This document shows positions 11,533 through 38,434 of a stretch of DNA of 64,000 nt, one piece after another. The notes under the pieces are model-generated. The model saw nothing but the letters and a program-made list of their open reading frames with translations. It was not told the DNA's origin and searched no databases. The position numbers and the translations under genes were made by a program. This stretch comes from Bernardetia sp. ABR2-2B (GTDB lineage Bacteria; Bacteroidota; Bacteroidia; Cytophagales; Bernardetiaceae): the NCBI RefSeq assembly GCF_037126435.1, contig NZ_CP147020.1:4663001-4727000 (forward strand), read 5' to 3'. Every line of letters starts with the position of its first letter. Within the stretch, counting starts at the first letter, position 1.

Positions 11533-11585
11533 AACAAAGGGTTCAGAAATTACTTCACTTTAAAGTAACTTCTGAACCCTTTGTT
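11533..11585. terminator. Long hairpin terminator after the gatB unit
   Basis: Perfect 16-bp stem AACAAAGGGTTCAGAA/TTCTGAACCCTTTGTT, with a second pairing TTACTT/AAGTAA nested in the loop. Flanking A-runs allow it to act in both directions between convergent gatB-unit and proline dehydrogenase genes. Confidence 0.8.
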
Positions 11586-11605
11586 AAAAATTGCTCAAAA
11601 TGCCA

Positions 11606-11637
11606 TTGTTGGTGTTTTAGCAAACCGACACCAACAA
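11606..11637 (-). terminator. TTGTTGGTGT hairpin after proline dehydrogenase
   Basis: Perfect 10-bp inverted repeat TTGTTGGTGT/ACACCAACAA with a 12-nt loop, 8 bp past the proline dehydrogenase stop on the minus strand. The arm GCCATTGTTGGTGT is repeated with one mismatch, in inverse orientation, at 17919-17932, so it may be a dispersed palindrome recruited as a terminator. Confidence 0.5.
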
Positions 11638-11645
11638 CCAAATAA

Positions 11646-16437: not shown

Positions 16438-16497
16438 TAAACGAAATCCATAACTTTAGTTATGGGAAAATAAAAGTGTTTTTTCGTTTTGCTATCC
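16438..16497. other. Nested inverted repeat upstream of surA
   Basis: CCATAACT/AGTTATGG (16448-16465, two-base spacer) is enclosed by an outer AAACGAAA and its complement TTTTCGTTT. It lies in the 199-bp gap before surA and could be a terminator for the upstream gene or an operator; there is no clean T-tract. Confidence 0.3.
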
Positions 16498-26156: not shown

Positions 26157-27601
26157 AAAGTAATTCTAAAATTTAAAATAATCTGATTCATTTCCTCAAA
26201 AACTAAATCTACATCTTCTTTTTCTGTTCTCCAATTTACAAAAGAAGCTCTAATTCCTTTTCTACTTCCATAAAAAGTAGGAGTCATAAATACTTTTCCT
26301 GTATCATTTAGCTTTTTCAAAAAAAGTGTAACTTCATCTTGATTATCTTCATTGTTACTTTTCTTCAATGAAAAACAAATATTATTCAAATGAATTGGTG
26401 CTAATAACTCCAAATCATTGCTATCCGTAATTTTCTGACCAAAATAGTTTGCCAAATCAATACAATTTTCTACTATATCTCTATAACCCTCTTTTCCATA
26501 CGCCATAAGTGTAAACCAAGCAGGAAGAGCTTTCAAACGCCTAGAGTTTTCAGGCAATACATTGAGATAACTAAAATTTTCAAATGGGTTTCCTAAATAA
26601 GGTGCATTCGAATTTTGAAATGCTTCAGTTTGTAAAATGCTATATTCTTTTTTTACTAAAAAAATTGCACTTTCATAAGGAACGTTTAGCCATTTATGGC
26701 AATCTATGGTAATACTATCTGCATTCTCCCAACCTTTTACCAAATGTTTTGTCTTCTCTGAACAAGCTGCAAAACCACCAAAGGCAGCATCAATATGCCA
26801 CCAAAAATTATATTTCGTTTTTAGTTTATTTATGGCTTCAAAGTCATCAAAATCAACTGTATTTACTGTTCCTCCACTTGAAAGCAAAATAAAGGGTTTT
26901 CCATTTAGAGATTCAATAACTTTTTTTAAATCTGGAATTGAAATCGTTTCTCTATTTCCTTCTAGTGTTTTGACAGAAATAATTTTTGTACTTCCCATTC
27001 CTAATAAAGAAATTGCTTTGATAGCTGATGAGTGTGGAGTAGCTGACAAAACTGCAATTTCTTCTCTAACTCCTTCTTTTGCTATATCTTTCGGTGAATT
27101 ATTTCCTTGATTGTCTTTGTAATTTTTGCCTATCCATTGTCTTGCTACTGCCAAACACGTAAAATTAGACATGGTTGCTCCTGTTACAAAACCACCTAAA
27201 AACTCTTTTGGAAGCTCAAATAACTCTAGTAATAAATTGATAGTTTCTAATTCAATATTTGCAGAAATATCTCCATTCCCATTTGTAGCTTGTGTATTTT
27301 GGTCATAAATAGTTGCCAACCAATCGCCTACAAGAGATGCAGGTGTAGAGCCCCCTGTTACATATCCCCAAAATCTTGAACCCGAAGAAGCTACCATCGT
27401 AGATTCGAATCGTTGATTAAATAACTCTAATGCTTGTATTGTTCCTAAACCTTGCTCATCAAGATTTAACTTTTCCTTTGAGTCAAACTTACTTGAAGTT
27501 GGTCTGTCGTTAATATTTTTGAGATAATCTGTTCCTTGAGAAGCTACTTTTTGTAGGATTGATTCAATGTTTTCTGAATCTGATTGTAAGATATTATTCA
27601 T
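26153..27601 (-). CDS. Group II PLP-dependent decarboxylase, second paralogue
   Basis: A 482-residue PLP enzyme of the pyridoxal-dependent decarboxylase family. The key residues are present: TPHSSAIKA with H190, WWHIDAAFGGF with D271, and DCHKWLN with the lysine K303. The early GSRFWGYVTGGSTPASLVG and CLAVARQWIGKN regions set it apart from the aromatic decarboxylase at 22.8 kb and closer to 'aspartate aminotransferase-like' decarboxylase paralogues. The substrate is unknown. Downstream it overlaps an unknown secreted protein by 4 bp; upstream it overlaps a small membrane protein (27594-27878) by 8 bp, making a three-gene unit. Confidence 0.9.
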   Translation of the reverse strand: MNNILQSDSENIESILQKVASQGTDYLKNINDRPTSSKFDSKEKLNLDEQGLGTIQALELFNQRFESTMVASSGSRFWGYVTGGSTPASLVGDWLATIYDQNTQATNGNGDISANIELETINLLLELFELPKEFLGGFVTGATMSNFTCLAVARQWIGKNYKDNQGNNSPKDIAKEGVREEIAVLSATPHSSAIKAISLLGMGSTKIISVKTLEGNRETISIPDLKKVIESLNGKPFILLSSGGTVNTVDFDDFEAINKLKTKYNFWWHIDAAFGGFAACSEKTKHLVKGWENADSITIDCHKWLNVPYESAIFLVKKEYSILQTEAFQNSNAPYLGNPFENFSYLNVLPENSRRLKALPAWFTLMAYGKEGYRDIVENCIDLANYFGQKITDSNDLELLAPIHLNNICFSLKKSNNEDNQDEVTLFLKKLNDTGKVFMTPTFYGSRKGIRASFVNWRTEKEDVDLVFEEMNQIILNFRITF

Positions 27602-27878
27602 GGTTTGAAATTGATAAATTAATGTTGTTTTTCTGTTCTTGTATTTCTTTTTTAGAATTTTTACTCAAGTAAATTGCACTTCCAAGTAATGTAATAAAAG
27701 TTAGAATAAAAAGTGTTATATTTCTTCCAAATTGATCAAATAAATGACTGTATGAATATCTACCCAAGAAAAATAACCAACGAATAGCTGCACCGATTGA
27801 GTTGAAAAAGGTTTTGAAAATAACTTCTACCAAAAACTCAAATATACCTTCTATCAAGCCTTCTAGGATACTTTCCAT
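27594..27878 (-). CDS. Small membrane protein
   Basis: A 94-residue protein: an amphipathic, Phe-rich N-terminal region (ESILEGLIEGIFEFLVEVIF), a short RWLFFLGRY segment, and one membrane helix (ITLFILTFITLLGSAIYL) followed by a polar tail. It heads the unit with the second decarboxylase, overlapping it by 8 bp. No family assigned; similar short proteins with this E/F-rich start are seen in Bacteroidota. Confidence 0.65.
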   Translation of the reverse strand: MESILEGLIEGIFEFLVEVIFKTFFNSIGAAIRWLFFLGRYSYSHLFDQFGRNITLFILTFITLLGSAIYLSKNSKKEIQEQKNNINLSISNHE

Positions 27879-27999
27879 TATTTTTTATTTATGAGAAACA
27901 GAAATAGTATTCCTAACGGTAAAAATAGTTTGTAGTTTCAATAAAAAGCAAAAAGTTCCTGTGGTATACACAACAGAAAGTTTTATCACTACTACTTAC

Positions 28000-28232
28000 T
28001 AACTGAAGTTACGCATTTGAAAAAAGCACCTTATTTTACTTAAAATAGATATTTTTGATTTTTATAAAAGACTCAATCCACAAAAACCTATTAATTGATA
28101 AAGATATGAGATTTTTTATCTTAGATTTTCAAATTTTAGTATCCTTATTTGCTTAAATAAAGTGTATTGCATATATTCAATTATAAATTTATATTTTGAT
28201 AAATATGGAGTCCTCATGCGTAACTTCAGTTA
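28000..28232. mobile_element. MITE-like element with 17-bp terminal inverted repeats
   Basis: Left end TAACTGAAGTTACGCAT (28000-28016) is the exact inverse complement of the right end ATGCGTAACTTCAGTTA (28216-28232). The 199 bp between them are AT-rich with no coding frame. Size, perfect terminal repeats and no transposase fit a non-autonomous miniature element. A clear target-site duplication is not evident. It lies in the 497-bp gap between two divergent genes (27879-28375), whose other parts show nothing. Confidence 0.65.
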
Positions 28233-28375
28233 CTAATAAGCATAACCAAGTTATAAAACAGTCTAAAATTATATCAAAAGACGATAAAATATAATAAAAA
28301 TGTGACTTCAATCTAAATTAAAGATTATGTTCATTAAATAAACAATAATCACTTTCTTACCATAATCTAATTTAG

Positions 28376-29182
28376 ATGAACCATAAAAATAAACACCGAA
28401 TTAAAAATAATCAGACAAAAACTGTCTTTTTATTATTGACTTTATATTTGTTGACTGGAGTTTCTTTTACAGGAGCTACTACCAATACTATCTACCAAGA
28501 AAAAAATGATACTATCAAGTATTCTACGCCTAATAGTACAATACTTCTAGATTCTACCAAAAAACATGTTACTGATATTTTGTATCTTCTTAAAGATGAT
28601 AAGAATGATATAGCTCATCTTATTATACAAATGGATACTATGGTTAGACTTGGTGTCATAAGACCTTTTAAAAATATCTCCTTATTAGAGAGAACAACAA
28701 AAGAAGATTATAGAAATGCTTGGGGAAAATTAAAATTATCTCATGAAGAAATTAAAGAGAATGAAAAATTGATAGCTCAACAAATTGGAGTGGAAATGAA
28801 AACCTCTTTAGTTATAGATGAACATCAAGTTTTATCTCTTTGTAATAATTTGATTACTCATAATCATATACCTTATGCAGGTGTAGCCATTTCTTTTTAT
28901 ATAAAATCGGACTTTTCTAAATCTGGAAAAAGAGAACATCTTTACACTTTGAGTACAGTTGAAATATATACAAATGTTATCGAATATAATTCATTATTAA
29001 AAAAGTGGGAGGATAAATTCAAACATAACGATTTTGATTTGGAGCTTTATGGTTACATTCATCCCACTACAGATGAAAAAATCATATATACTAAAAAGAA
29101 GAGTTTATTGCCTCTAAAAAAACATCTCAATATGACTAAAGGCATAGAGGATTTAATTATAATTCCTAATTTAACTAAGTAG
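28376..29182 (+). CDS. Secreted or membrane-anchored protein of unknown function
   Basis: A 268-residue protein with a polar, basic start (MNHKNKHRIKNNQTK) then a hydrophobic segment (VFLLLTLYLLTGVSFTGA) that looks like a signal peptide with a long n-region. The remainder is hydrophilic, lysine-rich, with no repeats or motifs I recognise. It lies alone between the MITE-like element and the convergent oligopeptidase gene, in a locally AT-rich stretch. Likely exported; function unknown. Confidence 0.7.
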   Translation: MNHKNKHRIKNNQTKTVFLLLTLYLLTGVSFTGATTNTIYQEKNDTIKYSTPNSTILLDSTKKHVTDILYLLKDDKNDIAHLIIQMDTMVRLGVIRPFKNISLLERTTKEDYRNAWGKLKLSHEEIKENEKLIAQQIGVEMKTSLVIDEHQVLSLCNNLITHNHIPYAGVAISFYIKSDFSKSGKREHLYTLSTVEIYTNVIEYNSLLKKWEDKFKHNDFDLELYGYIHPTTDEKIIYTKKKSLLPLKKHLNMTKGIEDLIIIPNLTK

Positions 29183-38414: not shown

Positions 38415-38434
38415 CCCACGAATTTATTCGTGGG
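38415..38434 (-). terminator. Terminator of the DUF4249/TonB unit
   Basis: CCCACGAAT pairs with ATTCGTGGG (9 bp, two-base loop); the minus strand then reads a T-rich tract. It lies 9 bp past the stop codon of the DUF4249 gene. Confidence 0.75.

Follow-up and report, generated by a model that had tools for sequence, protein, structure and literature searches.

The window, i.e., the whole 64-kb stretch of DNA analysed here (64,000 nucleotides of Bernardetia sp. ABR2-2B), carries a small gene-less element at 28003-28229 between two divergent open reading frames, one of 94 amino acids at 27594-27878 on the reverse strand and one of 268 amino acids at 28376-29182 on the forward strand. Both frames lie outside the element, neither has a Pfam match, and counterparts of both occur in G002, a genome of the same genus (the own genome is referred to as G000, a further genome of the same genus as G001 and a genome of the same family as G009). 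The element is separated by 124 bp from the start of the 94-aa frame and by 146 bp from that of the 268-aa frame, both distances taking in the flanking target duplications.

Borders and composition of the element

The original prediction described a 233-bp element with perfect 17-bp terminal inverted repeats. A perfect 17-bp inverted repeat is indeed present (TAACTGAAGTTACGCAT at 28000-28016, with its exact complement at 28216-28232) but only 14 bp of each arm belong to the element. A 7-bp direct repeat, TTACTAA, flanks the element on the left (27996-28002) and on the right (28230-28236), and the outer three bases of each arm are, therefore, target sequence. These bases (TAA/TTA) are complementary because TTACTAA is palindromic except for its centre; the direct repeat likewise explains why the arms extended to 21 nt at 95% complementarity in a repeat search. 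The element is consequently 227 bp long, and its termini are the perfect 14-bp repeat CTGAAGTTACGCAT at 28003-28016 (forward strand) and the exact complement at 28216-28229 (reverse strand); both copies in G001 have the same borders. The near-palindrome AACT-GA-AGTT, assigned earlier to the arms themselves, does exist but extends across the border into target sequence. No other perfect 17-bp inverted repeat with a span of ≤400 bp occurs within the window, and 100 first-order Markov resamplings of the window contained 0.02 such repeats on average and never more than 2.

As predicted, the interior is AT-rich, with a GC content of 22.9% for the element against 31.9% for the window, though the flanks are just as AT-rich (25.8% and 20.1%). 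No stop-free stretch exceeds 42 codons, and there is no transposase gene, in line with the earlier reading that the element holds no gene. An effect on the promoters of the divergent neighbours, which had also been suggested, is unsupported: sigma-70-like sites are not enriched (4 vs. 4.8 expected), and a search for a terminator-like site gave none. The Bacteroidota-type promoter motif is a -33/-7 pair; such pairs were found only with one mismatch, three inside the element and three outside, a distribution that carries no weight either way. Elsewhere in the window, a 23-bp inverted repeat at 11533-11585 (96% complementary, 7-nt loop) is perhaps a terminator or a repeat.

Empty site and copies in related genomes

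The orthologous site in G002 is empty. When this genome was compared with a 1501-bp probe, the part to the right of the site (847-1501) was 96% identical and the part to the left (1-555) 81%, and at the site itself TACTACTTACTAATGAAG is continuous, the element being absent and TTACTAA present once. The intergenic region of G002 is not identical to that of the window because it contains an extra 91-aa gene between the flanks, which by eye resembles the 94-aa protein; the empty-site junction nevertheless aligns base by base. The uneven identity on the two sides (compared over 27400-28900 of the window), together with the extra gene in G002, possibly reflects recombination of the right-hand segment.

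Among 291 genomes sampled from the order, the full-length element occurs in two, once in G000 and twice in G001 (C1:2962360-2962585 and C1:3857783-3858008). Compared with the copy in the window, the G001 copies show 95.6% and 94.7% identity; between themselves they reach 98.2%, and each has a 7-bp duplication of its own (TAAATAA and TTATTCA), so that all three full copies share this duplication length. Short matches alone, of at most 79 bases among the matches listed, were obtained for 31 other genomes; these we take for chance similarity in AT-rich DNA. The plasmid collection gave no match at an E-value of 1e-5. For the first site in G001 (L063), an unoccupied counterpart in G006 can be aligned with the two flanks joined, although the orthology of this counterpart is uncertain since a second G006 match to the same flank is nearly as good (74% and 73%); L182, L184, and L190 gave weaker alignments to the same joined flanks. 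At the second site (L068), alignments of the flanks with several relatives reach close to the insertion point, but with the flanks joined no alignment spanned the junction in any of six loci. The overall pattern is thus not that of a single copy present in every relative with no transposase sharing its ends; copies stand at several places and a relative has an empty site, although the own genome has only one full copy.

A dispersed repeat of about 150 bp was also encountered in the locus of the second G001 copy (L068:1745-1900). It has the inverted ends GGTGGTGTT / AACACCACC, and G004 contains at least 20 matches. The hairpin inside it, GTTGTTGGTGTTTTAGCGAAGCGACACCAACAAC, recurs in G000, G002, G005, and G006, and a variant lies in the window at about 11604-11640. 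It is possibly another family of miniature inverted-repeat elements (MITEs) or a REP-like family.

Partner insertion sequences and elements with similar ends

A complete insertion sequence with the ends of the element, the presence of which the original prediction had proposed to check, is present in G009 and was not found in the own genome. It is 1216 bp long (C207:8868-10083) and flanked by the duplication TTATTTA, and both its ends agree with the terminal 13 bp of the element in 13 of 13 bases. Its one open reading frame, on the reverse strand, encodes 365 amino acids from an ATG; the protein scores 273.2 bits against the NCBIfam model NF049921 (transpos_IS701_2; cut-off 250), matches Pfam DDE_Tnp_1 and DDE_5, and is also present in identical form in JAFIER010000230.1 (MAG: Bernardetiaceae bacterium). 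In G001 a transposase that is 48% identical to that of G009 (303.2 bits to NF049921) is flanked by the ends CTCAAGTTACGCA and CTGAAGTTACGCA, which agree with the element end in 13 of 13 bases on one side and 12 of 13 on the other; this insertion sequence has no matching target duplication, and G001 carries a second, partial transposase copy. G002 contains three 1136-bp copies, which end in CTGTAGTTACGCA and CTGGAGTTACGCA and are flanked by 7-bp duplications; the transposase there reaches 292.5 bits.

The own genome, G000, gave no match to the G009 transposase at E≤1e-3, and none of its 22 matches to NF049921 attains the cut-off of 250 bits. One of these, a fragment scoring 34 bits, shows no recognisable ends, 16 are copies of another DDE insertion sequence (28.9 bits, open frame of 376 amino acids; on C1, e.g., 497280-497852), and the five others are weak as well. 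As no intact cognate transposase was found and the element is single-copy in this genome, the copy in the window is probably stranded there.

Ends of this type also enclose other interiors. Elements with exact 7-bp duplications and interiors unlike that in the window were found in G000 (161, 140, and 250 bp), G002 (164, 102, and 71 bp), and G009 (two of 133 bp, with a third 133-bp element whose flanks differ at one position); the second end of a 382-bp pair in G000 is poor, and this pair may be due to chance. For loci L001-L101, we collected inverted end pairs with ≤2 mismatches placed 40-1500 bp apart. In 15 of the 28 distinct pairs the predicted border is marked by an exact 7-bp duplication, as compared to 1 of 448 shifted borders, and in 13 it is not; duplication lengths from 4 to 10 other than 7 were never seen in more than one of the 28 pairs. 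The 15 duplications conform to TTANTAA, and because the targets are so alike, flanks compared across elements also agree in 6 of 210 cases. The duplication counts are strong, yet not independent of this target preference. The tally of sister elements is not exhaustive, as 30 of the 104 end-like places at ≤2 mismatches were made into loci; a control with the reversed pattern gave 76, indicating that most two-mismatch places are due to chance. Inside several sister elements (L005, L006, L022, and L073) there are two hairpins, one of the type CCCACGATT..AATCGTGGG and one of the type CCCATAACT..AGTTATGGG, whose order varies. The window has hairpins like these standing alone at 16446-16466 and 38415-38434.

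Origin and affiliation of the element

The element is real and, as the original prediction had it, a MITE; it is a genuine one, of an ordinary kind. It is short, AT-rich and gene-less, has a target duplication and ends in common with a full insertion sequence, and its site is empty in a relative, all of which is typical of bacterial MITEs; it differs from them in its few copies (one in the own genome, two in G001) and in an interior that could not be traced to any insertion sequence found. We consider it very probable that it was moved in trans by the DDE transposase of an insertion sequence that shares its ends; the present copy is probably now stranded. Movement in trans is the most likely mode judging from the common ends and the duplication length. 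An insertion sequence of ca. 1.1-1.2 kb with CTGANGTTACGCA-type ends, located elsewhere, would supply the DDE transposase; this enzyme would bind both 13-14 bp ends and move the 227-bp segment, which would be joined to an AT-rich TTANTAA target with a 7-bp stagger; repair of the gaps would then produce the 7-bp duplication. Some observations count against this scenario, i.e., the interior matches the insertion sequences by 11-15 bases only, the ends aside, the own genome yielded one full copy and, besides five further weak NF049921 matches, no intact transposase of the group, one end of the G001 insertion sequence is mismatched and its flanks show no matching duplication, 13 of the 28 end pairs are without an exact duplication, and the targets are much alike.

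Alternatively, the element could have started as a full insertion sequence from which an internal deletion removed the transposase gene, and not be a MITE with a foreign interior. The 13-14 bp ends shared with the insertion sequences of G009 and G001 are compatible with this, and an unsampled insertion sequence may have been the parent. However, a short-word blastn comparison with three insertion sequences and two degraded relatives revealed only matches of 11-15 bases beyond the ends, on which grounds we reject an origin by plain deletion from any of those insertion sequences, and the whole 226-227 bp are common to the three copies. A deletion origin therefore seems improbable. It is still less probable that the MITE was moved by the DDE insertion sequence resident in the own genome in 16 copies, despite its 376-aa open frame and its (28.9-bit) similarity to NF049921: the three copies read share a block of about 1.18 kb with other ends, CTCAGTCCTCTGACAAAA and CTTACTCCATTGACAAAA, and contain no site within three mismatches of the element end, and we reject this candidate on its differing ends. 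That the repeat is not mobile at all, and is instead an inverted repeat due to chance or structure or an intergenic hairpin with a regulatory role, has a negligible likelihood, since its folding (better than shuffled sequences, z -3.8, 0 of 200) would be produced by the terminal inverted repeat alone, no Rfam match exists over 27800-28500, neither terminator-like nor enriched sigma-70-like sites occur, and the empty site in G002, the copies in G001 with their target duplications, and the Markov resampling contradict it.

We compared the partner group of insertion sequences with the published families. From the 80 named loci kept, 33 near-full-length relatives were picked by hand, and 32 of these have ends of the element type on both sides (within 150 bp, ≤3 mismatches in 12). 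An exact 7-bp duplication was seen in 9 of the 30 named relatives with seven bases available on both sides, compared to 6 of 870 cross-locus pairs; the remaining 21 lack it, some of them showing other lengths by eye. In the transposase alignment, Y275, R278, E282, and K289 are invariant in 10 out of 10 sequences, i.e., the Y-2-R-3-E-6-K motif is complete.

The definition of the IS4 family is a single open reading frame with Y-2-R-3-E-6-K, as given in PMC2266710, and this is what the partner insertion sequence has; the three NCBIfam IS4 models that match, however, score far below their cut-offs. The G009 transposase exceeds the curated cut-off of the IS701_2 model (273.2 vs. 250). IS701 elements, in contrast, are described as 1400-1550 bp long, with a 4-bp duplication and an incomplete YREK motif (PMC2266710), whereas the partner group measures 1079-1216 bp, has a complete motif and, in the complete insertion sequences of G009 and G002, 7-bp duplications. 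For ISGka1 and ISGka2, which have been placed in IS701, duplications of 4-9 bp are reported in PMC8024623. The IS4 subgroup ISPepr1, which we compared by its published description, is characterised by 5'-CT ends with the consensus YT-AA-YTT---A, 7-8 bp duplications, AT-rich targets, a complete YREK motif, and a length of 1500-1600 bp (PMC2266710). The partner group shares the 5'-CT ends, the 7-bp duplications, the AT-rich targets and the complete motif, and the consensus agrees with CTGAAGTTACGCA at 7 of 8 fixed positions and with CTGATGTTACGCA at 6 of 8, although the partner insertion sequences are shorter. The partner group, therefore, is IS701 by its NCBIfam name but resembles IS4/ISPepr1, as described in print, more closely in motif, ends, and duplication. 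A further reading, which we regard as possible but rather doubtful, is that these insertion sequences form a coherent group spanning several phyla (1.08-1.2 kb, ends CTSAN-TTACGCA, 7-bp TTANTAA duplication, complete YREK) that is poorly served by the division into IS4 and IS701 and that may repeatedly have taken up unrelated interiors, giving rise to several MITE families in the Bernardetiaceae, some with two inner hairpins.

Titles and abstract openings in the literature, mostly outside subscription journals, contained no description of the element, nor any of IS701-linked MITEs in the Bernardetiaceae; three papers contain both "IS701" and "MITE". Within the same scope CTGATGTTACGC did not occur, and its complement appeared only in one unrelated virus paper. 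Our results largely represent ordinary genome biology of low general interest, apart from the following points. The empty site and the copies elsewhere document a small mobile element in a little-studied family of the Bacteroidota. This element is tied to a group of insertion sequences with a 7-bp TTANTAA target, and this partner group fits poorly under the IS701 name that automatic annotation gives it.
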